From contig NZ_CP068439.1 of the NCBI RefSeq assembly GCF_016757735.1, positions 62,001-126,000 of the forward strand: 64,000 nucleotides of DNA, given 5' to 3'. The notes under the pieces are model-generated. The model made no database searches, had not been told where the DNA came from, and worked only from the letters and a program-made list of their open reading frames with translations. Source of the DNA: Aequorivita iocasae. GTDB lineage: Bacteria > Bacteroidota > Bacteroidia > Flavobacteriales > Flavobacteriaceae. A program made the position numbers and the translations under genes. This document shows positions 305 to 43,750 of the stretch, in pieces. Each line of letters opens with the position of its first letter. The stretch's first letter is position 1.

Positions 305-369
305 AAAATACTTTTAAAATGTTTTATTGAATGCAAATATCTTTGGTTTGGTTTATATAAACAAGCGTG

Positions 370-960
370 TTAACGTTTCTTTTTTGCATTGGGGAATTTC
401 ATCCGGTAATCAACGCCTACTTTACCTTTTGAAATGTTTGCCAATTTACTTTTTATCAATCGTTTTTTTAAGGGGGAAAGCTTGTCGGTAAAGAGAATCC
501 CTTCAATATGATCGTATTCATGTTGAATGATTCGCGCTACAATTCCGCTGAAAGATTCTTTGTGTTTTTTGAAATTTTCATCCTCATACTCCATCACGAT
601 ATTTGGCTTGCGGAAAACATCCTCGCGCACATCAGGAATACTCAAACAACCTTCGTTAAAAGCCCATTCATCACCAGATTCCTCAAGAATTCGCGCATTG
701 ATGAAAACTTTCTTAAAGGTGGAAACAAATTTTTGTTCTTCTTCACTTAAATCTTCATCGTCCTCAAAGGGGGTTGCATCCACAATAAAAAGACGTAGGG
801 GTAGATTTACCTGTGGCGCAGCTAGACCAATGCCACGGGCTTCGTACATGGTTTCAAACATGTTTTCGAGAACTTCCTCCAGATTTGGATAATCTTTCGT
901 TATTTCTGTGGTTTCTTTTCTCAATACGGGATCTCCGTAAGCTACAATCGGTAGTATCAT
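370..960 (-). CDS. def: Peptide deformylase
   Basis: Removes the formyl group from the N-terminal methionine of new proteins in the cytoplasm. All three family motifs are present in the 196-residue product: GIGLAAPQ (43-50), EGCLS (103-107, metal-binding Cys105) and QHEYDH (146-151, metal-binding His147 and His151, catalytic Glu148). An acidic insert of about 20 residues (66-85) and a basic C-terminal tail (PNAKKKR) are typical of flavobacterial type I enzymes. The ATG at 960 lies 4 bp after the ruvX stop, so the two genes are probably co-transcribed from the promoter upstream of ruvX. Confidence 0.97.
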   Translation of the reverse strand: MILPIVAYGDPVLRKETTEITKDYPNLEEVLENMFETMYEARGIGLAAPQVNLPLRLFIVDATPFEDDEDLSEEEQKFVSTFKKVFINARILEESGDEWAFNEGCLSIPDVREDVFRKPNIVMEYEDENFKKHKESFSGIVARIIQHEYDHIEGILFTDKLSPLKKRLIKSKLANISKGKVGVDYRMKFPNAKKKR

Positions 961-964
961 TAAA

Positions 965-1375
965 TTATCTATTATATAAAAATTCCTGTAAAATTATTGT
1001 CGCGCTAATTTCATCAACAAGCGCTTTGTTTTGACGCTGTTTTTTCTTTAAGCCGCTGTCAATCATGGTTTGAAAAGCCATTTTGCTTGTGTACCGTTCA
1101 TCTATGCGCTTCACAGATAAGTCGGGAAATACTTCTGAAAATTTCTTTAAAAACAACTGAATCTGTTCTTCAATAGTGGAAGGGGTTCCATCTTTCTGCT
1201 TCGGCTCGCCTACCAAAACCAGTTCCACCTTTTCGGTGTGAATGTATTTTTTCAGAAAATCCATCAAATCAGAAGTAGCAACTGTTGTTAAACCTGAGGC
1301 AATCAACTGCAACTCGTCCGTAATGGCGATGCCCGTTCGCTTGCTGCCGTAATCCAATGCTAAAATTCTTCCCAT
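965..1375 (-). CDS. ruvX: Putative pre-16S rRNA nuclease / Holliday junction resolvase-like protein (YqgF)
   Basis: A 136-residue RNase H-fold protein of the YqgF/RuvX family, involved in 16S rRNA 5' maturation in E. coli. The N-terminus MGRILALDYGSKRTGIA carries the first catalytic Asp (LDYG), VLVGEP is the second core strand and RIDERYTS the conserved acidic strand. Full family length. It starts with ATG at 1375, diverges from dapD and probably forms an operon with def, 4 bp downstream. Confidence 0.95.
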   Translation of the reverse strand: MGRILALDYGSKRTGIAITDELQLIASGLTTVATSDLMDFLKKYIHTEKVELVLVGEPKQKDGTPSTIEEQIQLFLKKFSEVFPDLSVKRIDERYTSKMAFQTMIDSGLKKKQRQNKALVDEISATIILQEFLYNR

Positions 1376-1470
1376 AACGACTGCAAAAATAAGAGTTTCG
1401 GAAATAGTATGCTATAAATGGGCATTTAATTGAATGTGAGGTTTTATATTTGTAAAAAGAATTTACTCAC
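1376..1470. promoter_or_regulatory. Divergent promoter region between ruvX and dapD
   Basis: Both genes have an exact match to the Bacteroidota -7 element TAnnTTTG. On the plus strand TATATTTG lies at 1445-1452, 18 bp before the dapD ATG. On the minus strand TATTTTTG lies at 1391-1384, 8 bp before the ruvX ATG. No TTG -33 element at the usual 17-23 bp spacing is visible for either. The implied 5' leaders are very short. Confidence 0.55.
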
Positions 1471-2286
1471 ATGACCGAACTACAACAAACCATAGAAAAA
1501 GCTTGGGAAGACCGTTCCTTACTCACTGAAACCGAAACCATTGTCTCCATTCGCGAAGTTGTCAATCTTTGTGATGAAGGCAAATTACGCTGTGCTGAGC
1601 CAACAGCAGATGGTTGGAAAGTAAATGAGTGGGTGAAAAAGGCCATTGTACTCTATTTCCCTATCCAAAAAATGCGCACTTTGGAAGCAGGGATTTTTGA
1701 ATATCACGATAAAATTCCATTAAAATCAGGGTACGAAGCTAAAGGAATTCGCGTAGTACCGCACGCGGTTGCGCGCCACGGAGCTTATATCTCAAAAGGC
1801 GTAATCCTCATGCCTAGTTATGTAAATATTGGTGCGTATGTTGATGAAGGCACAATGGTAGATACTTGGGCCACGGTGGGCAGCTGCGCACAAATCGGGA
1901 AGGGTGTTCATCTTAGTGGCGGCGTAGGTATTGGCGGTGTTTTGGAACCGCTGCAGGCCGCTCCCGTAATAATTGAGGATGGTGCCTTTATAGGCTCACG
2001 CTGTATTGTGGTAGAAGGTGTTCGCGTTGGTAAGGAGGCGGTTTTGGGTGCCAATGTTGTGCTTACGGCTTCCACGAAAATTATTGATGTTACCGGTGAA
2101 ACGCCAGTGGAGACCAAAGGTTCTGTCCCCGAACGTTCCGTAGTGATTCCCGGAAGTTATACCAAAAAATTTCCTGCTGGGGAATACCAAGTTCCATGCG
2201 CATTGATAATTGGAAAACGTAAGCAGAGCACCAACTTAAAAACTTCATTAAATGATGCGTTGCGCGAATACGGAGTGGCGGTTTAA
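1471..2286 (+). CDS. dapD: 2,3,4,5-tetrahydropyridine-2,6-dicarboxylate N-succinyltransferase
   Basis: Transfers succinyl from succinyl-CoA to tetrahydrodipicolinate in the lysine/diaminopimelate pathway. The 271-residue product has the helical N-terminal domain (about 1-100) followed by left-handed beta-helix hexapeptide repeats (about 100-235), seen as IGAYVDEGTMVDTWATVGSC, then IGKGVHLSGGVGIGGVLEP, and IGSRCIVVEGVRVGKEAVLG. The C-terminus CALIIGKRK is typical. It stands alone, diverges from ruvX, and overlaps the convergent kinase-like gene by 4 bp. Confidence 0.96.
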   Translation: MTELQQTIEKAWEDRSLLTETETIVSIREVVNLCDEGKLRCAEPTADGWKVNEWVKKAIVLYFPIQKMRTLEAGIFEYHDKIPLKSGYEAKGIRVVPHAVARHGAYISKGVILMPSYVNIGAYVDEGTMVDTWATVGSCAQIGKGVHLSGGVGIGGVLEPLQAAPVIIEDGAFIGSRCIVVEGVRVGKEAVLGANVVLTASTKIIDVTGETPVETKGSVPERSVVIPGSYTKKFPAGEYQVPCALIIGKRKQSTNLKTSLNDALREYGVAV

Positions 2287-3038
2287 GATTTTCTCCGCCT
2301 CTTTCTGATTTTTTTGCTGTTCTTCGCTTTTTGAAATTTCCTACTGTACTTGCTCATTAATGCGTGGGTTTCCACGTAGGTTTTTCCATAAAGTTCTGCA
2401 TATTGTTGCGCGATAATTTTCACCATTGTTTTTGAAAGCCAAAGTCTTCTAAAATTGTGCATTCTTTTTTCAAAAGTCATATTTTCAAAGCGCATGCGGT
2501 TCAGATCAATCAAATAGAAATCATATTTGTCCTTTTGACGCTCTACGATTAATGTATTTCCAGGGGAATGATCTAGAAAATTCACATTGTTTTCGTGAAG
2601 TTGGAATGTAAATTCGGTAAACTGCCTAAGTACTTCATTTCTTTTTTTAAACCGCGGGTTGTGGATCAATTCCCTGAAATCAAAATCATAATCTATGTGT
2701 TCGCTTACGTAAAAACTCTCTCGCAGACCACCGGAAAAATTTTCAAGATATCCTACCGGAAATGGCGTTTTTATATCTAAAGCAATTAATTTGGAGGCAT
2801 ATTCAAAAGAGCGTTTTGCCTTGCTTTTCCTAAGAAATTGATAAACTACGGATTGAAAACGGTTCGGCGTTTTAAACTTTTTAATGTTCAATGAAATACC
2901 GTCAATTTTTATTTTCTTTATTACATTTCGTTCCCCCTTGGTTACGTAATCCTGATTTTTGGAAAAGTTATGCAGGGCGTCACTTAGCTTGGTAGCTATC
3001 TGGGCATATTTTGGGTGAATAACAAAATTCTCTTTCAT
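2283..3038 (-). CDS. Lipopolysaccharide kinase-like protein (InaA/Kdo kinase fold)
   Basis: The 251-residue product looks like the small protein-kinase-fold enzymes that phosphorylate Kdo or heptose of the LPS core. A catalytic-loop-like FLDHSPGNTLI lies at 154-164 (Asp156, Asn161) and a metal-binding LIDLNRMRF at 176-184 (Asp178). The tail is very basic (KKIRKRRRKS). I use the ATG at 3038 because the frame extends upstream only to a TTG at 3059 and the family begins near the segment ENFVIHPKY. It diverges from the GT9 gene, in keeping with core assembly. The exact sugar acceptor cannot be told. Confidence 0.7.
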   Translation of the reverse strand: MKENFVIHPKYAQIATKLSDALHNFSKNQDYVTKGERNVIKKIKIDGISLNIKKFKTPNRFQSVVYQFLRKSKAKRSFEYASKLIALDIKTPFPVGYLENFSGGLRESFYVSEHIDYDFDFRELIHNPRFKKRNEVLRQFTEFTFQLHENNVNFLDHSPGNTLIVERQKDKYDFYLIDLNRMRFENMTFEKRMHNFRRLWLSKTMVKIIAQQYAELYGKTYVETHALMSKYSRKFQKAKNSKKIRKRRRKS

Positions 3039-3086
3039 TTTTAAAAAAGATAAAACCAAAAAAGGTATTTTGCGAAGGTAATCTTT

Positions 3087-4169
3087 ATGAAGAAAATACT
3101 AGTAATACAGAATAAAAGAATTGGTGACGTGCTGTTAAGCTCTGTTATTGCCAATAATATCAAAAAAGTATTCCCCAACAGCGAAATCACATTTTTTGCA
3201 TACAATTATACTGTTGGTGTACTTGAAAACAATCCAAACATTGACCGTATAATTGCCGTAGATGAAAAGAAACTGAAGCAACTGCCCCATCTTTTCAAAA
3301 CCATCTTAGAGATGCGCCGTGAAAAATTTGATATAATTTTTGATCCTTACGCAAAGTTTCAAAGTAGGATGATCTGTCTGGGCAGCAATGCCAAATATAG
3401 AATAGGGTTTAAGCGTGAGCATAAAAAACTGAAACTTCCATTCTACACGCACCCCGTTAATTTTAAAAAGAAAGCCACTTTGCCGTGTGGCCGCGGAATT
3501 GAAGATAGGATTAATTTGATACAGTCCGTTTTTCAACTTGAAAATGCAGATTATGAACCAAAAATCTTTCTAACCGAAAAAGAACAAAGTTCAAATGATG
3601 TTGTAGCAATACAGCGCCCTATAATCATGCTCGGCGTACTGGGAAGCACCCCTCAAAAATCCATGCCGTATGAATATATAGCAAAAATCATAGATTTTAT
3701 TACCGAAAAATATAATGTTACTATTCTTTTCAACTATGCGCCGCAACAAAAAATGGAGGCCATGAAAATTTATGAAATGTGCTCCTGTAAGGAACAAATA
3801 AACCTAGATATTTATGCGGCTTCCATCCGCGGTTTCGCAGTGCTAATGAACCAATGCAACCTTTTGGTAAGCAATGAGGGAGGAAGCGTCCATATTGCAA
3901 AAGCCCTTGAAAAGCCCACATTTACCATCTATTCCCCGTATATTGACAAAGATGCTTGGAACAGTTTCGAGGATGGAAAATTTCATCAATCCATTCACCT
4001 TTTGGAAGAAAGTCCAAACCTATTCAGCAGTTTTACACCCGAAGAAAGAAAAAGGATTGAGGCAAATCCAGATTCGCTCTATTTAAAGTTAACTCCAGAA
4101 ATGATTCTCCCAAAACTAAAGCCCTTTTTAGCACATCACTTAATGGGTTTTGAAAAAACAACTATTTAG
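3087..4169 (+). CDS. Glycosyltransferase family 9 (ADP-heptose:LPS heptosyltransferase-like)
   Basis: A GT-B enzyme of 360 residues. The N-terminal MKKILVIQNKRIGDVLLSSV with IGDVLL at 12-17 is the family signature, and SNEGGSVHIAKAL at 262-274 is the conserved C-terminal nucleotide-sugar site. GT9 enzymes add heptose to the inner core of lipopolysaccharide at the cytoplasmic face of the inner membrane. The divergent neighbour is a core-kinase-like gene, supporting a core role. It overlaps the convergent double-domain GT2 gene by 8 bp. The donor sugar is inferred only from the family. Confidence 0.88.
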   Translation: MKKILVIQNKRIGDVLLSSVIANNIKKVFPNSEITFFAYNYTVGVLENNPNIDRIIAVDEKKLKQLPHLFKTILEMRREKFDIIFDPYAKFQSRMICLGSNAKYRIGFKREHKKLKLPFYTHPVNFKKKATLPCGRGIEDRINLIQSVFQLENADYEPKIFLTEKEQSSNDVVAIQRPIIMLGVLGSTPQKSMPYEYIAKIIDFITEKYNVTILFNYAPQQKMEAMKIYEMCSCKEQINLDIYAASIRGFAVLMNQCNLLVSNEGGSVHIAKALEKPTFTIYSPYIDKDAWNSFEDGKFHQSIHLLEESPNLFSSFTPEERKRIEANPDSLYLKLTPEMILPKLKPFLAHHLMGFEKTTI

Positions 4170-5847
4170 AAAAGCTTTGTGAGGCCTCTACCAAATTTGG
4201 GGATTTCTCCTTTTTTATTCCATACTCGGTCCAAACTCTTTTCTCCTTTTTGGTGATTTTTCTAATGGCTTTATTTTTTACAAACATTTCTTTTTTCACA
4301 TAACCGCGCTCGTGGTCCAAATGTAGCGTTACGGTACTGTATCTAATTTGAAGTGGTTTTATTCCGTAATTCATAAGGCGTTCACCCATTTCGCGGTCTT
4401 CACCACCATACTGCATCCGCTCGTCAAATCCATTTACCGCCAAAATGTCTTTTTTCCAACCCGAAGCGTTGTTTCCATCCCAGGTGGCACTTGTGGGCGT
4501 GAATGTATTTAGAATATCTTCTTTTAAGCCGTAGGAGGTAAGTTTATTTAACTTAAAGGTTTTTTTAAGGCCGTGTTTCAAAAGCCATTTTGCGTTAAAA
4601 CAGCGTTGGGCAGCAATATCCTCGCGGGTAATCTGCTTTGAAATCTTCATCGAAAGCTTAAAATATCCTGCAGAAAGAAAACAGCCTGGACGGCTGAGGC
4701 CAAGATGGGTAGCGACCAGATCGTTCCTTGGAATGCAGTCGCCATCGGTAAAAATCAAATACGTTCCCCTTGAAGCTTGAATTGCCTTATTTAGAATTTT
4801 GGTCTTTTGAAATCCGTGGTCTTCCTGCCAAACGTGTGTTATTTTTAACGGTGAATTTTCCCTAAAGGAATCTATCAAAAATTTGGTTTCCGCTGTAGAA
4901 CCATCATCTGCTATAATTATTTCGAAATTTTTTTCCAGTTGCTCCTCAAAACCCCAAAGTGATTTTTGAAGCCATTCTGGCTGATTATAGGTACTCACAA
5001 TTACAGAAACATACGGTGCTGAACCAATATTCTTTATAATACCATAGGGTGTCCATTTCTTTTTTTGGTCGCGGGTTTGCTTACGTATTGTAAGGTTTTT
5101 ACTAATGGATTCCTGGTTTTTATACCCGCGTGGATGGTCTAAATGAAGTACTACTGCATTATAACGTATCTGTTTGCTCTTTATGCCCAGATTTATCAAT
5201 CGCTCCCCCAGCTCCCTGTCCTGTCCGCCGTATTGCATCCGCTCATCAAAACCATTTATGGCGAGTATATCCTTCTTCCAGCCAGATGCATTATGCCCGT
5301 TCCAACTTGCGTTTGTGGGAGTAAATGAATTGAGCAGAAATGCTTTTAATGGCCCCGAATAGAGTTTATTATTTTTAAAAGACGCCTGCAAGCCGTGCTC
5401 TTTAAGCCACGAAACATCAAAACATTTTTCTGAATATATATCTTCTTTGGTAATTTGTTCTGAAATATCCATCGGCAGCATAAAATACCCGCCCGAAAGG
5501 AAATAGCCTTCTTCACGGTATTTAACGTGCTGTTCCACAAAATCCTTCCGCGGAATACAGTCGCCATCGCTCATAATAATATAATCTGTACTGCACTGAA
5601 GAATGGCTTTATTGAGAATTTGCGATTTTTGGAAACCTTTGTCCTCGTGCCAAACGTGAACAATGGGGTAAAACACTTCGGCTTCCAGTTTTTTGAGTAA
5701 CTGTCTTGTTTTATCATCAGAGCCATCATCGGCAATTACAACTTCAAACTGCCTATAGGTTTGGTTGTTATAACCATACAACACTTTTTCGAGCCATTCG
5801 CGGCTATTGTAGGTGCTAATAATAATGGAAGTATCCAATTGTTTCAT
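4162..5847 (-). CDS. Tandem double-domain family 2 glycosyltransferase
   Basis: The 561-residue product contains two complete GT2 domains in a row, about 5-270 and 279-545. Each has the N-terminal strand (SIIISTYN and SVIVSTYN), IADDGS, a DGD metal site (94-96 and 368-370), an FTPT.A.W.G.NASGWKKDIL segment, a GGxDRExGERL motif (208-217 and 482-491, like the galactosyltransferase C-terminal region) and the HLDHxRGY ending. The two halves look like an internal duplication. The ATG at 5847 has a TATCTTTG element 5 bp upstream. It probably adds two sugars or a repeating disaccharide of the core; the substrates are unknown. Confidence 0.88.
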   Translation of the reverse strand: MKQLDTSIIISTYNSREWLEKVLYGYNNQTYRQFEVVIADDGSDDKTRQLLKKLEAEVFYPIVHVWHEDKGFQKSQILNKAILQCSTDYIIMSDGDCIPRKDFVEQHVKYREEGYFLSGGYFMLPMDISEQITKEDIYSEKCFDVSWLKEHGLQASFKNNKLYSGPLKAFLLNSFTPTNASWNGHNASGWKKDILAINGFDERMQYGGQDRELGERLINLGIKSKQIRYNAVVLHLDHPRGYKNQESISKNLTIRKQTRDQKKKWTPYGIIKNIGSAPYVSVIVSTYNQPEWLQKSLWGFEEQLEKNFEIIIADDGSTAETKFLIDSFRENSPLKITHVWQEDHGFQKTKILNKAIQASRGTYLIFTDGDCIPRNDLVATHLGLSRPGCFLSAGYFKLSMKISKQITREDIAAQRCFNAKWLLKHGLKKTFKLNKLTSYGLKEDILNTFTPTSATWDGNNASGWKKDILAVNGFDERMQYGGEDREMGERLMNYGIKPLQIRYSTVTLHLDHERGYVKKEMFVKNKAIRKITKKEKRVWTEYGIKKEKSPNLVEASQSFSK

Positions 5848-5884
5848 CTACGCAAAGATAAAGTTATTTACTAATTTTGTGGGA
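5848..5884. promoter_or_regulatory. Compact divergent promoter pair with near-leaderless starts
   Basis: Only 37 bp separate two divergent ATG codons. The minus-strand gene has TATCTTTG at 5860-5853, and the plus-strand gene has TAATTTTG at 5872-5879. Both match TAnnTTTG exactly, and each ends 5 bp from its ATG. If the transcription start is a few bases after the element, both messages begin at or next to the start codon. Confidence 0.5.
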
Positions 5885-6631
5885 ATGGCACGTCTTTCTG
5901 TTATCGTACCCACTTTTAATGAAGAAGCATATCTTGAAGATGCGCTTTTTTCAGTTGCCTTTGCCGATGAAATTATCGTGATTGATTCCTACAGTACCGA
6001 TAAAACCACGGAAATAGCAAAAAAATATGCCACAAAATTACTGCAACGAAAATTCGATAATTTTTCAAACCAGAAAAATTTCGCGCTTAAAGAAGCCACC
6101 GGCGATTGGGTTTTGTTTTTGGATGCAGATGAACGGGTAACCCATTCTTTGGAAGCAGAAATAAAAGAAACCCTCCAAAACCCAAAACATGGTGGCTATA
6201 AAATAAATTTCCCCCATTATTACATGAACCGTTTTCTGTATCACCACAGCGATAATGTGCTTCGGCTGGTGAAACGTGAAGACGCGGAATATGTGGGAGC
6301 CGTGCACGAAAGGCTTATTTGTAAGGGAAGTATTGGGAAGCTGAAAAACAAGATGCTTCATTTTACTTACAAAGGTTTTGAAAATTATATTTCAAAAAAA
6401 GAATCATACGCATGGTTTCAAGCCCAGCAACAGTTTGAAAAGGGAAAAAAAACTACTTGGTTCCACCTGTTTTTTAAACCCACCTATCGTTTTTTTCGTT
6501 CCTTTATTCTTAAGGGCGGTTTTCGCGACGGTGTTCCAGGGCTAACCGTTGCCGCTGTAAATGCCTATGGCGTTTTTGAACGTTATGTAAAATTACGTTT
6601 GCTGAACAAAGGCTTTGAAGAAAATAAATAA
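5885..6631 (+). CDS. Family 2 glycosyltransferase (WaaE/KdtX-like)
   Basis: A 248-residue GT2 protein starting MARLSVIVPTFNEEAYLEDA. The nucleotide-binding strand leads to DSYSTDKT, and DADE at 80-83 is the metal-binding site. VGAVHERL and the C-terminal hydrophobic segments around FKPTYRFFRSFI match the family of LPS-core glucosyltransferases such as WaaE. The frame is open upstream to 5813, but I use the ATG at 5885 because the family starts there and a TAATTTTG element lies just upstream. The next gene is a tandem paralogue. Confidence 0.85.
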   Translation: MARLSVIVPTFNEEAYLEDALFSVAFADEIIVIDSYSTDKTTEIAKKYATKLLQRKFDNFSNQKNFALKEATGDWVLFLDADERVTHSLEAEIKETLQNPKHGGYKINFPHYYMNRFLYHHSDNVLRLVKREDAEYVGAVHERLICKGSIGKLKNKMLHFTYKGFENYISKKESYAWFQAQQQFEKGKKTTWFHLFFKPTYRFFRSFILKGGFRDGVPGLTVAAVNAYGVFERYVKLRLLNKGFEENK

Positions 6632-6677
6632 ACGTAGTTCTTAAAATCATTACTTTTACACAAACCTTTGTCCGCTG

Positions 6678-7439
6678 TTGGAAAACCCTGCTAAAATCAC
6701 CGCCCTTGCCATTACGCTCAACGAAGCCCACAACATTGAAGCTTATATTAAAAGCCTTTGGTTTGCGGATGAAATTATAATCGTAGACTCTTTCAGCAAT
6801 GACAGCACCGTACCATTAGCATCCTCACACGAAAAAGTTACGGTTTACCAACGCGCTTTCGATAATTTTTCGGCACAGAAAAATTTTGCCATTACAAAAG
6901 CCACAAACGATTGGGTCACTTTTTTTGATTTGGATGAAGAAGTAACCCCAGCACTCGCACAAGAAATTTTGGAAAAATTCAAAAACCCTTCCGCGATAGC
7001 CTATTTTGTAAAGCGCGACTTCTATTTTATGGGAAAGCGCATTAAATACAGTGGTTTACAGAATGATTATATAATTCGTTTTTTCAATAAAAACCAGTGC
7101 CGGTATAACGCAAATTTGGTGCACGAAACCTTGGAAGCCGACGGCAAGACCGAAAACTTAAAAAACAGTCTGCCACACCACACCTACAAAACATTTGATG
7201 ATTATACTGCAAAAATGCACCAGTACAGCGCCCTGCAGGCAAAAATGCTTTATAAAAAAGGAAAGAAACCTAATTATTATCATTTTCTGTTCAGGCCTTT
7301 TTACCGGTTTTGGAACCAGTTTATATTCCGGTTGGGAATTTTGGACGGAAAGGAAGGTTTTATTTTGGCCTACGTTAGTGCGTTTTCCGTTTTTAAAAGA
7401 TATATAAACCTGTGGCTTTTGTACCGAAAAATTGATTAG
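6678..7439 (+). CDS. Family 2 glycosyltransferase, paralogue of the preceding gene
   Basis: A 253-residue GT2 protein colinear with its upstream neighbour: ITALAITLNEAHN, DSFSNDST, a shared FDNFSxQKNFA segment, DLDEE (84-88), LVHETLE and the C-terminal FRPFYRFWNQFI. The start is a TTG at 6678; no ATG lies near it. It is 46 bp downstream of its paralogue and 3 bp before the CDP-glycerol-transferase-like gene, so the three are likely one operon. Likely a core glycosyltransferase; the sugar is unknown. Confidence 0.83.
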   Translation: MENPAKITALAITLNEAHNIEAYIKSLWFADEIIIVDSFSNDSTVPLASSHEKVTVYQRAFDNFSAQKNFAITKATNDWVTFFDLDEEVTPALAQEILEKFKNPSAIAYFVKRDFYFMGKRIKYSGLQNDYIIRFFNKNQCRYNANLVHETLEADGKTENLKNSLPHHTYKTFDDYTAKMHQYSALQAKMLYKKGKKPNYYHFLFRPFYRFWNQFIFRLGILDGKEGFILAYVSAFSVFKRYINLWLLYRKID

Positions 7440-7442
7440 TAA

Positions 7443-8579
7443 ATGGATAGGAAGCATAAAATAGCATTTATCTTTTTGGATGAAATACACCACATCTATC
7501 ATTTTGTGAGCATAGCCGTGGAACTTTCAAAACAAAACGAGGTTCAAATTCTTACCTATCCAGGAAAGCACGACCTGCTCCATAAAGCACTGGAAAAACT
7601 AAACGGAACTAATGTAATTGTAGAAAAATTGCAGACCTCCCTTTTTCGGGCTTTCACAGATAAACTGAAAAATAGAAAGCTGCCCCGAAAGGGTTTTTGG
7701 ATAAAAAAACATCAAAATTATATTCTCACTAATTTTGATGCAGTTGTTTTTTCAGATTATTATCACCATTACCTTTTAAGGGCGCGGGGAGAGAATTCAA
7801 GACCCAAATTTATAAAATTATTTCATGGCCCTCCGGGAAGAGGCTATAGCTATAATAAAGAATTATTGGATTTTGATTTTCAAATTTTATACAGCCAATT
7901 TCATAGTGAACAATTAAAAGAAAAAAAAGTATTAGTAAAAAATTGGACAATTTCTGGGTACCCAAAATTGGATGTGATAAAATTTAAAGATGTCAAACCC
8001 CTCTTTTCAAATGAAAGAACAACGGTTCTTTACAACCCCCATTTTGAACCCGCGCTATCATCTTGGCATTCCATGGGACTGGAAATTCTTGAGTTTTTCT
8101 TCAATTCAAAAAAGTACAACCTCATCTTTGCCCCACACATAAACCTGTTCAATAAATTGGGGGGTGATGATGCTTCGCGAATTCCAGAAAAATTTTTCAA
8201 TGCAGAAAACATCCATATAGACCTGGGCAGCGAAAAAAGTGTGGATATGACTTATGTAAATGAGGCAGATATGTATCTTGGCGATGTTTCCAGCCAGGTT
8301 TTTGAATTTATCATCAATCCTAGGCCTTGTGTCTTTCTAAATTCGCACAAAATAAAGTTTAAGAAAGATATAAATTACAGGTTTTGGCACTGTGGCAAGG
8401 TTGTAAATAATGCGGAAAAATTGCCCAAAGCGTTAAAAAAGGCTCCAAAACGTTTTGATAAAAAACACAGAAAAATTCAGGAAATCATGAATTTAGAGAA
8501 TTTTTATTTTGAAAAGGGCTCCACGGCATCGCAGCGCGCAGCTGTAGCCATCACTGAATATCTGGACAAAAATCTATAA
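7443..8579 (+). CDS. CDP-glycerol glycerophosphotransferase-like protein (TagF-like GT-B fold)
   Basis: The 378-residue product has the landmarks of the TagF/TagB family: KLFHGPPGRGY at 125-135 (the usual form is WHGTPLK, with catalytic His128), YNPHFEP near 197-203 and a phosphate-binding DVSSQVFEFI at 281-290 followed by PRPCVFLN. In Gram-positives these enzymes polymerise teichoic acids. In a flavobacterial core cluster it may add a polyol-phosphate or a sugar to LPS; this is inference. The ATG at 7443 follows the upstream stop by 3 bp. It overlaps the convergent GT2 gene by 6 bp. Confidence 0.68.
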   Translation: MDRKHKIAFIFLDEIHHIYHFVSIAVELSKQNEVQILTYPGKHDLLHKALEKLNGTNVIVEKLQTSLFRAFTDKLKNRKLPRKGFWIKKHQNYILTNFDAVVFSDYYHHYLLRARGENSRPKFIKLFHGPPGRGYSYNKELLDFDFQILYSQFHSEQLKEKKVLVKNWTISGYPKLDVIKFKDVKPLFSNERTTVLYNPHFEPALSSWHSMGLEILEFFFNSKKYNLIFAPHINLFNKLGGDDASRIPEKFFNAENIHIDLGSEKSVDMTYVNEADMYLGDVSSQVFEFIINPRPCVFLNSHKIKFKKDINYRFWHCGKVVNNAEKLPKALKKAPKRFDKKHRKIQEIMNLENFYFEKGSTASQRAAVAITEYLDKNL

Positions 8580-9359
8580 ATATTTTTCGATTCCGTTTTT
8601 ACACCATTTGCTCTTTTCGGCAATGGCCTTTTCCTGTAAGGAATCATTCATCTTAAAGCGGCTTTGGTCTTTCACTTTATGCCAAATATGATAAACAATG
8701 CCCCGATAGCGAAGTCTTTTTCCCAAAACACCATTGTTCATCATCCTAATAATAAGTTCGGAATCTTCCCTCCCCCAGCCTTCAAATTCTTCATTATAAC
8801 CATTTACTGCAACCACATCTTTCTTCCAAAAGGAAACATTGCATCCCCGCATTTTTTTTGAAATACTATTTTTTGTTCCATAAAGTCTGCTAAAAAGTGG
8901 AATCCGCAGATTTCGGGTACGCTTTTTTATCCCCTCAGCAAAAAAGCTGAAAGCAATTTTTTTCTCCCTAAATAAAGTGGGCAAATAATGTTCCTGAATA
9001 TTTTCCCGGCTGCCGTACAAATAGGCATTTTCCTGTGCCATTGCTTTGTGGTCCTTTACAAAATCACGGTGCATAATGCAGTCGCCGTCAATTTGAATAA
9101 TATATTCGCCGGTGGCTTTCGCAATGGCCTTGTTCAAAATAATTGCTTTTCTGAAACCTTTGTCTTCGTGCCAAAAATGCTTTATTGCATACGGAGTTTT
9201 CTTTCTGAATCCATCAATCAAAGTTTTTGTTTCTTCCGTTGAACCGTCATCCGCAATCAAAATTTCATCGGGCTTTTCACTTTGCACTTGAGCACTTAAT
9301 AGTACCAATTCCAAAGCCTGTGGCCAATTATAGGTTGAAATCAAGAGCGATGTTTTCAT
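8574..9359 (-). CDS. Family 2 glycosyltransferase
   Basis: A single-domain 261-residue enzyme related to each half of the tandem GT2 protein encoded at 4162-5847. It has LLISTYN (5-11), IADDGS (35-40), a DKGFRKAIILNKAI segment, DGD (91-93), a MRGCNVSFWKKDVVAVNGY stretch and WGREDSELIIRM in the C-terminal part. It starts with ATG at 9359, with TATATTTG at 9386-9379 about 20 bp upstream. It closes the core-like gene cluster. Substrate unknown. Confidence 0.85.
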   Translation of the reverse strand: MKTSLLISTYNWPQALELVLLSAQVQSEKPDEILIADDGSTEETKTLIDGFRKKTPYAIKHFWHEDKGFRKAIILNKAIAKATGEYIIQIDGDCIMHRDFVKDHKAMAQENAYLYGSRENIQEHYLPTLFREKKIAFSFFAEGIKKRTRNLRIPLFSRLYGTKNSISKKMRGCNVSFWKKDVVAVNGYNEEFEGWGREDSELIIRMMNNGVLGKRLRYRGIVYHIWHKVKDQSRFKMNDSLQEKAIAEKSKWCKNGIEKYL

Positions 9360-9378
9360 CGGTTATCAGAATTTTCCT

Positions 9379-9386
9379 CAAATATA
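9379..9386 (-). promoter_or_regulatory. -7 promoter element
   Basis: The reverse strand reads TATATTTG, an exact match to TAnnTTTG, ending 19 bp before the ATG of the GT2 gene at 9359. No TTG at the usual -33 spacing was found. Confidence 0.4.
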
Positions 9387-9489
9387 ACCATTTAATGCAA
9401 GTGATATTTAGGCTTCAAAGTTAAACGGAATTCTCTATGGATTTTACGTGTTTTTTGAAGTACTTTGCATTCTAAAATTTGAAAATCCG

Positions 9490-10056
9490 ATGAACCAAGC
9501 AGATGAAATAAACAACGCATTGACTGTTTTAAAAAAAGGAGGGATTATCCTCTACCCTACTGATACGGTTTGGGGAATAGGTTGCGATGCCACCAATGCC
9601 CAAGCCATTGAAAAAGTATTCAAACTTAAAAACAGAAGCGATAAAAAATCGTTGATCTGTTTGGTAAGCGATTTTAAAATGCTGAACGAATACGTTGAAA
9701 ACGTACCCGAAGTGGCCTATGATATTTTGAAATACGCCAAAAAGCCCACCACAATAATTTATGACAACCCCATTCGCGTAGCAGAAAATATTATTGCGGA
9801 AGATAACTCACTTGCCATACGCGTGCCCAAAGATGAATTCTGTAAAAAACTCATTCAAAAAATGCGGCGCCCGCTTGTTTCCACCTCCGCAAATGTGAGC
9901 GGTGAAAAAACCCCACAAAGTTTTAAGGAAATAGACCCAGTAATTTTGGAAGGCGTGGACTATGTTGTAAATTTGCATCACGAAAAAAAATCTGGAAAAC
10001 CCTCAGCAATTATTAAGCTGAAAAATGATGGTTCCGTGAAGGTAATCAGACAATAA
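9490..10056 (+). CDS. L-threonylcarbamoyladenylate synthase (Sua5/YrdC family, single domain)
   Basis: Makes threonylcarbamoyl-AMP for the t6A37 modification of ANN-decoding tRNAs. The 188-residue product shows YPTDTVWGIGCDA (22-34), the KxR-type LKNRSDKKSL and STSANVSG near the C-terminal third. It lacks the extra Sua5 C-terminal domain, so it is the short TsaC/YrdC type. I use the ATG at 9490 because the longer open frame adds a leader not typical of the family. It is followed by a repeat-flanked broken nuclease gene. Confidence 0.92.
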   Translation: MNQADEINNALTVLKKGGIILYPTDTVWGIGCDATNAQAIEKVFKLKNRSDKKSLICLVSDFKMLNEYVENVPEVAYDILKYAKKPTTIIYDNPIRVAENIIAEDNSLAIRVPKDEFCKKLIQKMRRPLVSTSANVSGEKTPQSFKEIDPVILEGVDYVVNLHHEKKSGKPSAIIKLKNDGSVKVIRQ

Positions 10057-10061
10057 ATATT

Positions 10062-10078
10062 GCCACTAATTCACGAAT
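10062..10078 (-). repeat. Left copy of an inverted repeat flanking a broken GxxExxY gene
   Basis: The reverse strand reads ATTCGTGAATTAGTGGC. A copy in the opposite orientation, ATTCGTGTATACGTGGC, lies at 10571-10587 (14 of 17 positions identical). A shorter relative lies at 10507-10518, and another copy, ATTCGTGTATTTGTGGC, at 20138-20154. The two outer copies bracket the GxxExxY pseudogene. Confidence 0.6.
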
Positions 10079-10104
10079 GTTTATACTTATCATAACTAAA
10101 AATA

Positions 10105-10479
10105 ATGGCTCACATTACCTATAAAGAAGAAAGTTATGCTATAGTTGGCTGTTTATTTGATGTTTATAATAATTTGGGAAGCGGGTTTTCTGAAATTGTT
10201 TACAAAGATGCTATCGAATATGAATTTAAATAAAAAGATATTCCCTTCGAAAGGGAAAAGCAATATTCCGTAAAATATAAAGACATTACTTTGCCACATA
10301 AATTTTATGCTGATTTTGTGGTTATGGACAAAATAATCTTGGAAATAAAATCTATTGAGATGTTAAGCGATAAACATTTGGCACAATGTATTAATTATCT
10401 GAAAGTTTCAGGATGTAAATTTGCGCTTTTGGTTAATTTTCATAAAGACTTCTTGGATTACCAAAGAATTGTTCTATAA
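10105..10479 (+). pseudogene. GxxExxY family protein (PD-(D/E)XK nuclease superfamily), interrupted by one in-frame stop
   Basis: From the ATG at 10105 the frame reads MAHITYKEESYAIVGCLFDV onward and contains the family motif GFSEIVY. It then meets a single TAA at 10231-10233 between two AAA codons and continues in the same frame to a TAA at 10477-10479. The downstream half has the nuclease-type ADFVVMDKIILEIKS (Asp, then Glu-Ile-Lys). Without the stop the product would have the family's usual length of about 124 residues. The downstream part alone (from 10291) is not a separate gene. It is related to the intact gene at 21114-21494 and is flanked by inverted ATTCGTG repeats. Confidence 0.82.
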
Positions 10480-10570
10480 ATAATAATCCACTAAAAATAT
10501 TAATGCATTCGTGGTAAAAAAATAATATTGGAGTAGTAATCAATACTCTCAAAAAAAATAAATAAAAAAT

Positions 10571-10587
10571 ATTCGTGTATACGTGGC
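10571..10587 (+). repeat. Right copy of the ATTCGTG inverted repeat, overlapping the start of cca
   Basis: ATTCGTGTATACGTGGC, with following bases CTAAA also shared with the copy at 20138-20158. The GTG inside this copy (10583-10585) is the start codon of the CCA-adding enzyme gene, so the repeat supplies the start and the first two codons. Confidence 0.6.
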
Positions 10588-12010
10588 TAAAAAAACCTAC
10601 ACATCTGCATTAAATAACCCAGTCTTTAGAACCATTTCCAAAGCTTCCAAAAATTTAAATTTAGAAAGCTACGCAATTGGCGGCTACGTGCGTGATTTTC
10701 TTTTAAAGCGTGGCGAAGCAAAAGACATTGATATAGTTGCGGTTGGCAGCGGTATTGAACTGGCACAGGAGGTTTCAAGATTGCTTCCGGGGAAACCAAA
10801 AGTTTCGGTTTTTAAAACCTATGGCACCGCAATGTTGAAAAGTGGCGGAATAGAACTTGAATTCGTAGGTGCCCGTAAAGAATCCTATAACGAGGAAAGT
10901 AGAAATCCCGCCGTGGAAAACGGAACATTGGAAGACGATCAGAATCGTAGGGATTTTACCATAAATGCTTTGGCGCTAAGCCTTAATGATGAAAACTATG
11001 GCGAGTTGCTGGACCCCTTTAATGGGGTTGAAGATCTTCAGAAAAAAATAATACGAACTCCTTTAGATCCCGATGTTACCTATAGTGATGATCCGTTACG
11101 AATGCTTCGTGCCATTCGTTTTGCGACCCAATTGGATTTTTCGATTGAGAATGATTCCTTGGAAGCCATTACGAGAAATGCAAAACGCCTAAAAATCATT
11201 TCAAAGGAACGGATTGTGGACGAAATCAATAAAATCCTTCTTTCCGAAGTACCTTCCAAAGGTTTTGCCCTTTTGCACAAAACCGGCTTGTTACCCTTTA
11301 TTTTACCGGAATTGGTTGCATTGCAGGGTATTGATGAAAAGGAAGGCCAAACCCATAAAGACAACTTTTGGCATACGTTAGAAGTTGTTGACAATATTTC
11401 AAAAACCACTGACGATCTTTGGTTGCGCTGGGCCGCGTTGCTTCACGATATTGGAAAAGCGCCCACCAAAAAGTTTGATAAAAAGTTGGGCTGGACCTTT
11501 CATGCACATGAATTTGTGGGCGCAAAAATGGTTTACAAACTGTTCAAACGACTAAAAATGCCCCTGAACGAAAAGATGAAGTTTGTTCAAAAAATGGTTT
11601 TAATGAGCTCCCGCCCCATAGTTTTGGCAAGCGAGGTTACCGATAGTGCCGTGCGACGTTTAATTTTTGACGCCGGTGAGAATGTTGATGATTTAATGAC
11701 GCTTTGCGAAGCAGACATAACAACAAAAAACCCTAAAAAGTTTAAAAAATACCACGCCAATTTTCAGTTGGTGCGCAATAAAATAGTGGAAGTTGAAGAG
11801 CGTGATCACGTTAGAAATTTTCAACCACCCGTTTCTGGCGAGGAAATTATGGTAACTTTTAACCTAAGACCTTCTCGGGAAATAGGAATAATTAAAGATG
11901 CCATAAAAGAGGCTATTCTGGAAGGAGAAATTCCAAATGAATACAGTGCGGCACGTGATTTTATGTTGAAAAAAGGACAGGAAATTGGCTTAAAAGCTGT
12001 AATAAAGTAG
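10583..12010 (+). CDS. cca: CCA tRNA nucleotidyltransferase with HD domain
   Basis: Adds or repairs the 3' CCA of tRNAs. The 475-residue product has the class II core: [11 protein letters not shown] (31-41), catalytic DID (48-50), the FVGARKESY strand, RRDFT (122-126) and the [15 protein letters not shown] helix. A C-terminal HD phosphohydrolase domain follows (LLHDIGKAP). The GTG start at 10583 is supported by family length, and no nearby ATG exists; it lies inside an ATTCGTG repeat. Probably monocistronic. Confidence 0.94.
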
Positions 12011-36079: not shown

Positions 36080-36225
36080 GGGTTCTCGATACATTTTTTA
36101 TTTTCCGCTTTCGCTCCAAATAAAAAACACTCGAACTAACAACTTTTAAACCACTGAATAGGGCTTATGTCAGGTCGAGTGAATTTGAGGGAGGCGGGAG
36201 CCGAACTCAAATTTGTATCGAGACC
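36080..36225. repeat. GIY-YIG-linked palindromic repeat, copy 1
   Basis: Outer arms GGGTTCTCGATAC (36080-36092) and GTATCGAGACC (36215-36225). Inner arms CACTCGAACTAACA (36128-36141) and TGTCAGGTCGAGTG (36168-36181). Hairpin I lies between the left arms (TTTTTTATTT with AAATAAAAAA). Hairpin II lies between the right arms, AATTTGAG pairing with CTCAAATT around a GC-rich loop. Confidence 0.85.
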
Positions 36226-36258
36226 AGTTTGCAGAGAAAAACAACTTTTGCAGATAAA

Positions 36259-36402
36259 GGGTTCTCGATACATTTTTTATTTTCCACTATCGTTCCAAAT
36301 AAAAAACACTCGAACTGACAATTGTTAAACAACTGATTAGGGAGTATGTCAGGTCGAGTGAATTTGTTGAGCCGCAGGGGAAACAAATTAGTATCGAGAC
36401 CC
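36259..36402. repeat. GIY-YIG-linked palindromic repeat, copy 2 (joins the gene's 3' end)
   Basis: Same layout as copy 1: outer GGGTTCTCGATAC and GTATCGAGACCC (36391-36402), inner CACTCGAACTGACA and TGTCAGGTCGAGTG, hairpin II AATTTGTT pairing with AACAAATT. The outer arms extend as ATAAAGGG and CCCTTTAT, and this extension includes the TAA stop codon of the GIY-YIG gene (36404-36406). Confidence 0.87.
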
Positions 36403-36403
36403 T

Positions 36404-36697
36404 TTATTTATTGAATTTCTTTTTAGCTAGGTTTGGCAATTTATTATATTCTTCATTGATCAGAGCCTCTTTTTTAGCCTTTGACCATTTTTTGATTTGC
36501 TTTTCCGTCGATATAGCCATGGTTATCTCCGTAAAAGTGCAATAGAATACCAGTTCTACGGGCAGTCTGGAAGAAGTATAACTGTTTAAATGTTTTCGGT
36601 GTTGATGGTCTTCCAATCGCTGGGTCAGATTGGAAGTTACCCCAGTGTAATAAGTACCGTCTGAACAGGAAAGAATATATACGTAATAGGTTTTCAT
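36404..36697 (-). CDS. GIY-YIG nuclease family protein
   Basis: A 97-residue single-domain protein of the UvrC/UPF0213 GIY-YIG class. The GIY-like strand YVYIL is at 5-9, the YIG-like YTGVT at 17-21, catalytic-type Arg27 (LTQRLEDH) and Glu65 (ISTEKQIKKW) are present, and a lysine-rich C-terminal helix follows. These are small endonuclease folds of unclear cellular role. ATG at 36697. Its stop codon lies in the end of palindromic repeat copy 2 and copy 3 begins about 40 bp upstream of its start, while the flanking genes are polysaccharide enzymes. Confidence 0.92.
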   Translation of the reverse strand: MKTYYVYILSCSDGTYYTGVTSNLTQRLEDHQHRKHLNSYTSSRLPVELVFYCTFTEITMAISTEKQIKKWSKAKKEALINEEYNKLPNLAKKKFNK

Positions 36698-36738
36698 AAA
36701 ATTAAATTAAGAAAAAATTAGACATTTTTTCTCATAAA

Positions 36739-36870
36739 GGGTTCTCGATACATTTTTTATTTTCCACTATCGTTCCAAATAAAAACACTCGAACTGACAA
36801 AAGTAGGTCGAAAGTCAGGTCGAGTGAATTTTAAGGAGGCGAGAGCCGAGTTAAAATTTTATCGAGACCC
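36739..36870. repeat. GIY-YIG-linked palindromic repeat, copy 3
   Basis: Outer GGGTTCTCGATAC (36739-36751) and ATCGAGACCC (36861-36870), inner CACTCGAACTGACA and GTCAGGTCGAGTG, hairpin II AATTTTAA pairing with TTAAAATT around GGAGGCGAGAGCCG. The middle spacer is shorter than in copies 1 and 2. It is in the same orientation as the other two. Confidence 0.85.
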
Positions 36871-36932
36871 TTTTGTCTTGGCTAACACCATTTGCAAATG
36901 ACCGGTTCCGGTTTCGACAAGCTCAACAAAGG

Positions 36933-36982
36933 CATTTTTTACTTTCCACTACCCTTCCACATGAAAAACACTCAAGCTGACA
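36933..36982. repeat. Diverged half copy of the GIY-YIG-linked repeat
   Basis: CATTTTTTACTTTCCACTAC and the following ACACTCAAGCTGACA align with the left half of copies 1-3. It is preceded by TTCGACAAGCTCAACAA (36913-36929), a motif also seen at 24889 and 25047. The right half is missing, and the GT4 stop codon follows at 36989. Confidence 0.6.
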
Positions 36983-36988
36983 TTTATC

Positions 36989-41793: not shown

Positions 41794-43173
41794 CTAATCA
41801 ATAATTCTTTTCCACACCGCCAAAGTAAGCAACATACTCAAAGGATGTGAATATTTAACTGCATCAACCGCCTTAAAATTATTATAAAAACGTGCAATTA
41901 GCGGTTTTGATAAAAAAGGGTGGAGATTTTCTTCAAAAAGCCATTGCTGTAATTTTTCATCATTTTCCATTCCTAAAAATTGTAGTTCCCAATTGCGCTG
42001 TATGTACGGTTTGCCCATTTTGCTTCTTAGCACCCGCTTTAACTTATTCGCTATTCTGTATGGTAAATTGTTTGGAGAGGTGTTTTTTTCAAATGTATAT
42101 AAATTATAGGGCCTATGATCTTGCCATGTAATTTTTGCCAAAGCCGGATTTTGTTGTTTAATATAAGCTATTTGTAGCTTTCTATCTGCCAGATATTCCT
42201 CTGGGACAGTACAAATAAACTTACACATCCTATCGTCATAATAGGGTACCGTTATTGGGTGTGCGGCCTCAAAGACGGAAAGATTGACTGAGGTCCAGCG
42301 CGGCGCCCAATACAGACTTTTAAAAGCCCGCAGTTTAGCACTTGGGTTTTTAATGTGAATTTTTTTAAGCAATCCAGTAATCCTTTCGCTTAAATAGCTT
42401 TCAAAGTCGCCTTCCAAATTCCATTCCTGCCATAAGGCGGTCGCAAGTTCCATCCCTCCTTTTTTTACAATTTTCTTTATAATAATTTCCAAAAGATCTT
42501 CTTCATTTGTCCCTTCGGGAGCTCCCCGGTTGAACAAGACATCGCCCCAATGCCCCAAGGAAAACACTCCTTCCATATTTTTGAATTCTTCCAAAACTGC
42601 CATTTGACGGGGATGGGTAAAATCGGAATAACATTGGTTTATGGAGGCCAGATCTTCCAGTTTTGGCCACAAATATCCTGATTCTATTGTAAATTCCTTA
42701 AAGTCAAAGCCACATACCTTCGCAATTTCCCTCCCAATTGCACTTTCTGAATAACCACCCTTAAAGGAATAGCTATACGCTGTAACGGGCTTCTTAAGTT
42801 TTGCCAGAGCAACGGCCTGTGTCCGGCTGTCCAAGCCGCCCGATAATGGAAGAATTACCTTGTTTTCCTTTGCTTGTTCACCTACGATTTGTTCAAAAAG
42901 CGAGGTAAATTCCTCCAAAGCTGTTTCAAAGCTTATGTCCCGTGGGCTATAATGCCATTGGAACCACGGTTTACTTTCAATTAAAAAACCGTTTTCATCA
43001 AGTGTATTTTCGGACGCGGCGGGCAGCACTTTTTTGTTTTTCCAATAGGTATCCGTATCGAGAAAGAAACCTGTGGCAGCAAAGATGCAAATTGCCTGAT
43101 GATCCAACTCTTGGGGAGCAGCTACCTTTACGAATTGTTGGTGGGGTGGGATTATTGGGGTTTTGATATCCAT
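41794..43173 (-). CDS. Asparagine-synthase-like amidotransferase lacking the glutaminase domain
   Basis: The 459-residue product contains the ATP-pyrophosphatase domain of AsnB (PP-loop VILPLSGGLDSRTQAVAL; later SLGHWGDVLFNRG and ITVPYYDDRMCKF) but starts MDIKTPIIPPHQQFV and so lacks the catalytic Cys2 glutaminase domain. The N-terminal 95 residues contain only remnants of a lasso-type or AsnB-like fold. In polysaccharide loci such proteins may amidate uronic acids or act on amino sugars; this is inference. ATG at 43173, 8 bp from a long heptad array. Confidence 0.8.
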   Translation of the reverse strand: MDIKTPIIPPHQQFVKVAAPQELDHQAICIFAATGFFLDTDTYWKNKKVLPAASENTLDENGFLIESKPWFQWHYSPRDISFETALEEFTSLFEQIVGEQAKENKVILPLSGGLDSRTQAVALAKLKKPVTAYSYSFKGGYSESAIGREIAKVCGFDFKEFTIESGYLWPKLEDLASINQCYSDFTHPRQMAVLEEFKNMEGVFSLGHWGDVLFNRGAPEGTNEEDLLEIIIKKIVKKGGMELATALWQEWNLEGDFESYLSERITGLLKKIHIKNPSAKLRAFKSLYWAPRWTSVNLSVFEAAHPITVPYYDDRMCKFICTVPEEYLADRKLQIAYIKQQNPALAKITWQDHRPYNLYTFEKNTSPNNLPYRIANKLKRVLRSKMGKPYIQRNWELQFLGMENDEKLQQWLFEENLHPFLSKPLIARFYNNFKAVDAVKYSHPLSMLLTLAVWKRIID

Positions 43174-43180
43174 TTACGAG

Positions 43181-43362
43181 GTACGAAGTTGGAAGTACGA
43201 AGTTGGAAGTACAATATACGAAGTACGAAGTTGTAAGTATAACGTTCGAAGTTGGAAATACAACATGCGAAGTATGAAGCTGGAAGTACAATGTACGAAA
43301 TTGGAAGTATGAAGTAGGGAGTAAGAATTTTTAAATACAACGTACGAAACACAAAGATGGGA
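43181..43362 (+). repeat. Degenerate heptad array, 26 units, consensus GTACGAA/GTTGGAA
   Basis: I can lay 26 consecutive 7-bp units over 182 bp without a single gap. Exact GTACGAA and GTTGGAA units alternate at the left end, with variants such as GTACAAT, GTATGAA and ATACAAC further on. The reverse strand is largely free of stops across the array, which produces apparent reading frames that I do not call genes. It lies downstream of the four-helix-bundle gene and just upstream of the asparagine-synthase-like gene. Confidence 0.93.
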
Positions 43363-43390
43363 GTTTATTTTAAAAATCATAATGAATGTT

Positions 43391-43750
43391 TCATTTAGCT
43401 TTTTGATTCCTACGAGTTGTTTTTATAGATGCCACTACAATTGATAAAATCTCTGTTCCTTCTTTATGCAAATCTGTGATTTCAGGTTTCAAACTTGGAT
43501 TTATTTCGGATAAAAGTTCTAAAAAATATAAAGTTTCATCTGCTTCTTCTTCAACAATTTTTAATTTATTTAAAAAATCCGCGGTAGATTTTGCTCTTTG
43601 CGATACACGATAATTAGCGCCAACTGAACTTGAGCACCTAATAAGTTGATTAATATATGCATTATATTCTCTCGTCTTTGGAATTTTTTCACAAAACTTC
43701 CACACATCAATTGCATATTGGCGTGTCCTTTTAAGTAAAGAATTTTCCAT
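43391..43750 (-). CDS. Four-helix-bundle protein (S23/IVS family)
   Basis: A 119-residue helical protein of the family first seen in intervening sequences of 23S rRNA (TIGR02436) and related in fold to the Avd protein of diversity-generating retroelements. Key segments are YAIDVWKFCEKIPKT, the family core INQLIRCSSSVGANYRVSQR, KLKIVEEEADETLYFLELL and a basic tail. ATG at 43750. GTACGAA heptads lie 28 bp past its stop (43181-43362, plus-strand orientation) and the same unit in inverted orientation lies on the other side (43815-43856). No rRNA is nearby. Confidence 0.9.
   Translation of the reverse strand: MENSLLKRTRQYAIDVWKFCEKIPKTREYNAYINQLIRCSSSVGANYRVSQRAKSTADFLNKLKIVEEEADETLYFLELLSEINPSLKPEITDLHKEGTEILSIVVASIKTTRRNQKAK

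Follow-up and report, generated by a model that had tools for sequence, protein, structure and literature searches.

Why the gene of a small nuclease should be enclosed by large palindromes is the question raised by a locus of Aequorivita iocasae. The locus lies in a stretch of 64,000 nucleotides (contig NZ_CP068439.1, positions 62,001 to 126,000), referred to here as the window and supplying the coordinates below; its source is a single 3.35-Mb contig. A 97-aa GIY-YIG nuclease gene (36404..36697, minus strand; open reading frame list and Pfam) has glycosyltransferase genes on either side and, as the initial annotation described, is surrounded by three full palindrome copies of ~145 bp (about 36080-36225, 36257-36406 and 36737-36873) and a half copy. 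That annotation also suggested a GIY-YIG counterpart of the repetitive extragenic palindromes (REPs) and their RAYT proteins, with a nuclease that may process or spread the palindromes. RAYTs (TnpA-REP) are Y1 HUH transposases of IS200/IS605 descent, and their REPs and paired REPs (REPINs) carry the tag GTAG. The suggestion is supported: repeats are enriched near the gene and co-occur with its protein clade, and neither of the contrary results set beforehand occurred. The locus probably belongs to a REP-like two-part system, in which a UPF0213-type GIY-YIG nuclease would recognise the folded tag strand of (C/T)GTC-tagged hairpin units and cut at or near the tag.

The nuclease and its repeat unit

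GIY-YIG (E 9.4e-15) is the only Pfam domain above cut-off in the 97-aa protein; no known transposase was found in it, and none of the NCBIfam models matched. Residues Y7, Y17, R27 and E65 are invariant across 28 aligned homologue sequences. The protein resembles UPF0213 structures in sequence (1ZG2, E 6.6e-17; 1YWL, E 3.8e-12), and a Foldseek search with its predicted structure (predicted local distance difference test score 86) again placed UPF0213 nearest (1ZG2, E 2.7e-5). Sequence and predicted fold thus assign it to the UPF0213 type. The next nearest solved fold, a weak match (E ~0.01), is Slx1, which is eukaryotic and has an Slx4 partner and an extra domain; we know of no link between Slx1 and repeats. 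The ratio of nonsynonymous to synonymous substitution rates was 0.03-0.29 in 11/11 homologue pairs, and the gene is under purifying selection.

The palindromes had been read as elements with two nested pairs of arms. Those arms are present as described, but the whole 145-bp palindrome was rejected as the element because units also occur singly at other loci, with hairpins unrelated to these. The unit proper is one half of the palindrome, and two units placed foot to foot make up the whole. Six half-units and one degenerate half therefore surround the gene. Copy 1 comprises a left half-unit (36083..36140, minus) and, foot to foot with it, a right half-unit (36169..36224, plus); copy 2 comprises 36262..36319 (minus) and 36348..36400 (plus), and copy 3 comprises 36742..36798 (minus) and 36814..36868 (plus). 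The gene-proximal units, right in copy 2 on the stop-codon side and left in copy 3 on the start-codon side, both point their heads towards the gene. Together with it they form a minimal cassette of unit, gene and inverted unit (36348..36798, no strand assigned) that measures 451 bp here and 404 bp at locus L069. The degenerate half-unit (about 36917..36985, minus) is preceded at 36912-36928 by a core like that of a second repeat type (TTTCGACAAGCTCAAC). A similar arrangement occurs at locus L126 (about 2711-2790), where a second-type core (TTGAGCTTGTCGAA) is inserted in a first-type unit.

The TAA stop codon of the gene (36404-36406) lies inside the CCCTTTAT extension of copy 2, as had been claimed, and the stop codon of the relative at L126 is likewise within a unit extension. 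The link is not conserved across loci. Where units stand head to head, the median gap between the gene match and the unit is 14-20 bp, and the overlap is therefore regarded as incidental.

Each unit begins with a (T/C)GTCA tag, followed by a short outer stem, TCGAGTG, a hairpin, GTATCGA and the returning stem. At the 30 best loci the form is GTCAsTTCGAGTG - hairpin - GTATCGAGAA, found near the gene in 30/30. The hairpins, of ~13-60 nt, vary in sequence between genomes and keep their self-complementarity. Of 546 type A and D units, 263 have TGTCA as their tag and 196 have CGTCA. As single-stranded DNA, each full copy in the window folds into a cloverleaf of outer stem, hairpin A, central hairpin B and hairpin C, with folding z-scores of -6.65, -7.85 and -6.80 and 0/200 shuffles as good for each. 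The arms of hairpin C vary among the copies with compensation (AATTTGAG/CTCAAATT, AATTTGTT/AACAAATT and AATTTTAA/TTAAAATT).

Both stems covary. The base after the tag and the final base of the unit form a Watson-Crick pair in 413/454 readable units (209 expected) and, scored once per locus, in 207/236 (103 expected). Inner arms agree at 5.82/7 positions, which falls to 3.33 when arms are swapped between 154 loci. Mispairs in the stem of the tag strand are asymmetric (38 G.T versus 5 A.C; 27 G.A versus 5 T.C), and the excess of G.T over A.C holds regardless of the direction of the unit to the gene (18:3 and 11:1). A tag strand that folds on itself would be expected to show such asymmetry.

A common core (outer stem, GAG, hairpin or short loop, CGA, returning stem) was present at 116/164 loci and in 14/164 control windows. 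Eight alternative cores reached at most 12/80 in any set, with at most 6/80 in controls. A single universal core for all units was nevertheless rejected, as CGTC-tagged REPs and some type C repeats (e.g., locus L264) do not fit it. The units were also rejected as members of an RNA family: no Rfam match was obtained at E<=1, and no intron.

Association with the gene and with protein clades

A strict pattern, TTCGAGTG N(10-40) GTATCGAG, gave 1247 matches in 112/249 genomes of the host family, whereas the reversed pattern used as a control gave 5. Homologues of the nuclease are patchily distributed (91/249 genomes at E<=1e-15). Units were found in 38/38 genomes with a homologue at E<=1e-30, compared with 74/211 others (Fisher p 1e-15). 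At an identity of at least 58%, units accompanied the homologue in 38/39 genomes, and the gene copy of the exception (G124) has an in-frame stop. The 30 nearest host-family loci all carry units beside the gene, 27 of them on both sides within 400 bp.

A scan of genome contigs, from which the best 80 of 477 confirmed stretches were kept, placed the first unit type within 150 bp of the gene at 71 of those 80; the remaining nine have a second type, TGAGC-nnn-GTCGAA, within 400 bp. The association extends beyond the host family. Profile searches detected homologues in 33/194 genomes of the Dyadobacter order and 55/296 of the Spirochaetes phylum, and 30 loci read from each set yielded two further types, TTGAGTA...TATCGAA and ATTGCGAG...GAAGCAAT. 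Record titles (Dyadobacter; Spirochaetes bacterium) are the basis for naming these two groups Cytophagales and Spirochaetota. Dropping six duplicates left 164 non-redundant loci of 170. A unit of one of the four types lies within 350 bp of the gene at 149/164 loci and in 10/164 control windows, placed 1000-1350 bp from the gene. Units occur on both sides within 400 bp at 27/30, 65/76, 9/29 and 10/29 loci in the four locus sets. The four patterns were derived from the very loci scored, and their details vary slightly in the paralogue analysis below; the weight therefore rests on the control windows, the reversed text and the intergenic controls. Among intergenic segments, 244/306 adjacent to the gene contain units, compared with 12/142 elsewhere. 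A motif-free test gave the same picture, with inverted flank similarity above 15 at 93/163 loci and in 1/143 control pairs. Inverted repeats thus flank the enzyme gene at many loci, as termini would, with mixed directions; at 51 of 109 type A/D loci the units stand head to head within 160 bp of the gene.

Repeat type follows the protein. Mapped on a tree of 170 proteins with types A and D merged, it requires 19 changes, compared with a shuffled mean of 56.6 (0/200 as low). Adding 34 paralogues gave 94 loci from the Dyadobacter order and the Spirochaetes phylum: all 44 with type A, B or D fall outside clade I, all 12 with type C fall inside it, and 38 have none. Clade I was defined as the smallest clade holding ten earlier type C rows, so that only two findings do not follow by construction: two new type C rows also fall in this clade, and types A, B and D are missing from it. 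Paralogues within one genome may also differ. Genome G409 has one of type B (L247) and one of type C (L356), and G598, G621 and G626 each have one of type D, the others being type B or without units; such cases argue that the protein, rather than the host, sets the repeat. A distinct Spirochaetes-set paralogue group (L359, L363, L369 and L371; start LFCVYIL, GATKD) is without units, and other paralogues in the same four genomes do carry them. This group is perhaps a housekeeping, YhbQ-like branch.

The clade I genes lead to a second, partly described repeat family. In the portions available of a 2013 survey (PMC3733652), CGTC-tagged REPs have a tag at one end, often TGTC, an 8-9-bp stem starting AT, a 4-5-nt loop and often a CCA tail, form dimers in opposite directions, and are known from alpha-Proteobacteria, Chlorobi, Bacteroidetes, Spirochaetes and Thermotogae. 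A dedicated transposase apparently was wanting for them, and their mobiliser was left open (PMC3733652, same portions). The strict form of these REPs, a (C/T)GTC tag with an 8-bp AT-starting stem, was found within 400 bp of 9/26 clade I genes, compared with 0/66 other genes of that set, 0/164 control windows and 3/106 Flavobacteria-type loci. Type C repeats and CGTC REPs together account for 21/26 clade I genes. Set against that partial description, clade I repeats share the tag, the stem starting AT and often the CCA tail; the units of the window share a (C/T)GTC tag at one end and differ in their 4-bp outer stem, GAG/CGA internal loop and second variable hairpin.

The CGTC REPs beside clade I genes led to the prediction that clade I homologues elsewhere have CGTC REP flanks. 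Among 13 homologues in a plasmid collection, 8 have them in the strict form, compared with 1/13 control windows, and five other tags, including GTAG, were found at 0/13. Seven of the eight positive loci are from alphaproteobacteria or Photobacterium; in Azospirillum lipoferum, CGTCATCCCCGC-GAAG-GCGGGGAT-CCAG occurs on both sides of the gene. Four of the five other loci have relaxed forms (e.g., a CCTC tag in Sinorhizobium meliloti). The 13 were picked among the 30 matches listed, with near-duplicates, two Neisseria, one Aeromonas, Rhizobium tumorigenes and the already read Planktothrix locus omitted, and two of them (L395 and L397) seem to represent the same orthologous site. The A. lipoferum gene (L394, plasmid AZO_p3), with its two-sided CGTC REPs, separates sufB from sufC within a suf operon.

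Possible movement of cassettes and alternative explanations

Gene and units are present at some orthologous sites and absent from others. In 11/32 locus pairs with genes at least 80% identical, neither flank shows similarity beyond 700 bp; among these pairs are two Winogradskyella algicola copies that lie about 6.5 kb from each other. Aligned orthologous loci are separated by unit-bearing gaps in 6/17 pairs, with single-unit cases in Polaribacter. In arrays of units, the gene occupies one or two head-to-head spacers, and other spacers measure 20-37 bp. Loci L095 and L168 are regular arrays of alternating units in which the gene occurs twice, at equivalent spacers.

The comparison of empty and filled sites proposed by the initial annotation could be made at one Chryseobacterium site, although no clean junction emerged. 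Matches were found in 78 congeners and 30 loci were read: the cassette is complete in 13 and shortened in 2, whereas 9 have a gap of 58-106 bp (empty) and 6 contain other DNA. A precise insertion site could not be assigned, as the junction was not resolved among the 30 loci. At four loci (L211, L213, L214 and L218), longer hairpin versions replace the end units at one end of the cassette or at both, a pattern resembling unit conversion.

Plasmids and phages were rejected as carriers of the clade of the window, since the matching records (6 from the plasmid collection and 3 from phages) are all below 60% identity. Units were present at only one of the four plasmid-collection loci read in this comparison, that of Planktothrix. 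There (L336, Planktothrix agardhii plasmid p1), TTCTGAG...CGAAGAA units stand on both sides of a GIY-YIG gene located between an MmeI-type restriction gene and the DISARM gene drmA.

Some of these patterns would also arise by homing, if a free-standing endonuclease cut double-stranded unit DNA, the gene were copied by homologous repair into gene-less alleles or units, and the units spread chiefly by serving as homology arms. In Aequorivita sp. UBA3180, the gene at the orthologous locus is identical at 285/294 positions (96.9%), whereas neighbouring genes match at 895/1164, 745/1071 and 789/1089 (70-77%) and eight stretches matching window positions 1-12000 are 72-88% identical. Likewise, in the Chryseobacterium pairs L178/L182 and L178/L179 the gene is 90-92% identical and the flanks 78-80%, and the filling of one or two head-to-head spacers in arrays fits the same scheme. 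The excess is not general (L144/L184: gene 83%, flanks 84-85%), and dispersed units occur at long distances from any gene. The covariation and the strand asymmetry suggest that the target is a folded strand and not duplex DNA, and neither an Rfam intron nor a further Pfam domain above cut-off was found. We consider this explanation unlikely.

A host function is appreciably less probable still. A nuclease that protects the cell from its own hairpins by resolving cruciforms or fork blocks, beside repeats that are regulatory or terminators, could have its co-location selected without spread being its task. Purifying selection agrees with this, as do the UPF0213 fold, the annotation of E. coli YhbQ as a DNA damage response nuclease, the four-way junction into which a foot-to-foot unit pair folds and the weak similarity to Slx1, described in the available part of PMC6902002 as a structure-specific nuclease acting on branched DNA. 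Against it stand the patchy presence of the gene, its occurrence at unrelated sites and as decayed copies, the clade-specific repeat types and the lack of repeats at yhbQ itself. If the units were instead transcribed structures processed by the protein, wobble pairs should exceed A.C mispairs, as they do; however, the asymmetry does not depend on how a unit is oriented to the gene, both strands beside the gene carry units, and no unit matches Rfam at E<=1, making action on RNA very improbable. Coincidence, or a shared preference for intergenic space, is scarcely credible. Units and gene are both intergenic and some genomes have units without the gene, but the intergenic control separates the two, repeat type tracks protein clade within one host set and even one genome, and new records bore out what had been predicted for clade I homologues.

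Several observations weigh against a nuclease that drives the copying of its own units. The genome of the window carries units at one locus only: BLAST found no further copy at E<0.01 (next-best match, E 0.02), and all 3 matches to the strict pattern are at the GIY-YIG locus. Neither the Chryseobacterium site nor the aligned orthologous loci yielded a target-site duplication or a clean insertion junction. Gene-proximal units are not always head to head (of the 109 type A/D loci, 13 are foot to foot, 23 have the same direction and 22 have units on one side or none), and 15/164 loci lack a unit of the four types. None was found at two Sphingomonas/Methylobacterium loci, one Bacillota locus or E. 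coli yhbQ. Conversely, units occur in 30/53 genomes with only a distant homologue and in 44/158 with none. Among eight of the latter, each with at least 10 units, a decayed, still unit-bracketed GIY-YIG gene was found only in G162 (contig 17, about 42940-43620), which has no intact close homologue. G127 and G203 have decayed gene fragments without adjacent units; G040, G047, G130 and G195 hold only homologues without adjacent units; and G070, with at least 10 units, has no gene match. Among the plasmid-collection loci, Rhizobium L396 has no CGTC REPs, even relaxed, and the control windows of Photobacterium L399 carry CGTC REPs too.

A candidate enzyme for (C/T)GTC-tagged palindromes

On balance, the combination of nuclease fold, folding tagged strand and clade-matched repeats favours the reading that the nuclease drives unit copying. 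The system would have two parts, a small free-standing UPF0213-type nuclease and a set of hairpin units that bear an unpaired (C/T)GTC tag. Within the clade of the window, the unit would comprise the tag, a covarying outer stem, GAG..., a covarying inner hairpin, ...CGA and the returning stem; the partners of the other protein clade would be the published CGTC-tagged REPs. Each nuclease may bind the tag strand of the matching unit type in its folded state, probably while replication leaves that strand exposed, and cleave it at the tag or close by. Repair or recombination by the host could then copy or convert units, unit pairs or the gene cassette between units, mobilising them to new places or into existing units.

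Similarities to known systems are partial. As in GTAG REP/RAYT systems, a small nuclease gene is flanked by inverted palindromic units, repeats are clade matched, and dispersed non-autonomous units have a conserved tag and form opposite-direction pairs. The enzyme is GIY-YIG rather than Y1 HUH and the tag is (C/T)GTC rather than GTAG, so the system of the window fails the defining features of RAYTs. It also fails the definition of an insertion sequence, which requires a transposase: terminal inverted repeats surround the enzyme gene, but no known transposase is present. With free-standing GIY-YIG homing endonucleases it shares the nuclease superfamily and catalytic domain and, at some orthologous sites, a gene of higher identity than the genes beside it; unlike them, it has no extra DNA-binding domain that could be found, no intron, and dispersed hairpin units that imply a structured rather than a long duplex target. 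Protein family and fold are those of UPF0213 proteins (1ZG2, 1YWL and E. coli YhbQ), although the members read from E. coli and Bacillota are repeat-free and packed among host genes.

Elsewhere in the window, at 43174-43380 and 43391-43750, a gene for a 23S_rRNA_IVP four-helix-bundle protein (PF05635) adjoins tandem repeats of 14-49 bp (GTACGAAGTTGGAA). Gene and repeats are possibly another pair of small protein and repeat.

The repeat superfamily has been described in part. The open-access PubMed Central literature (subscription papers and preprints lay outside this scope) yielded neither a link between GIY-YIG proteins and such repeats nor the other unit types, and a term search of the available text of PMC1564403 gave 0 mentions of UPF0213, COG2827 or palindrom. 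By analogy with RAYTs and GTAG REPs, GIY-YIG nucleases are best read as the missing partner of CGTC-type REPs. It seems fairly probable that UPF0213-type enzymes are dedicated to the whole superfamily of (C/T)GTC-tagged palindromes, including types that had yet to be reported as REPs (TCGAGTG/GTATCGA, TGAGC/GTCGAA, TTGAGTA/TATCGAA and ATTGCGAG/GAAGCAAT). The superfamily would then constitute a second REP world that evolved independently of RAYTs, and its members would rank with the most frequent intergenic palindromes in several phyla. If so, the matching enzyme would answer what mobilises CGTC-tagged REPs, a question left open in the available portions of PMC3733652, and a widespread, uncharacterised nuclease family would gain a function. 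Minimal nuclease-plus-hairpin cassettes of ~400 bp would provide cognate pairs testable in vitro, and the REP type of partnership would have arisen twice, from unrelated enzymes.
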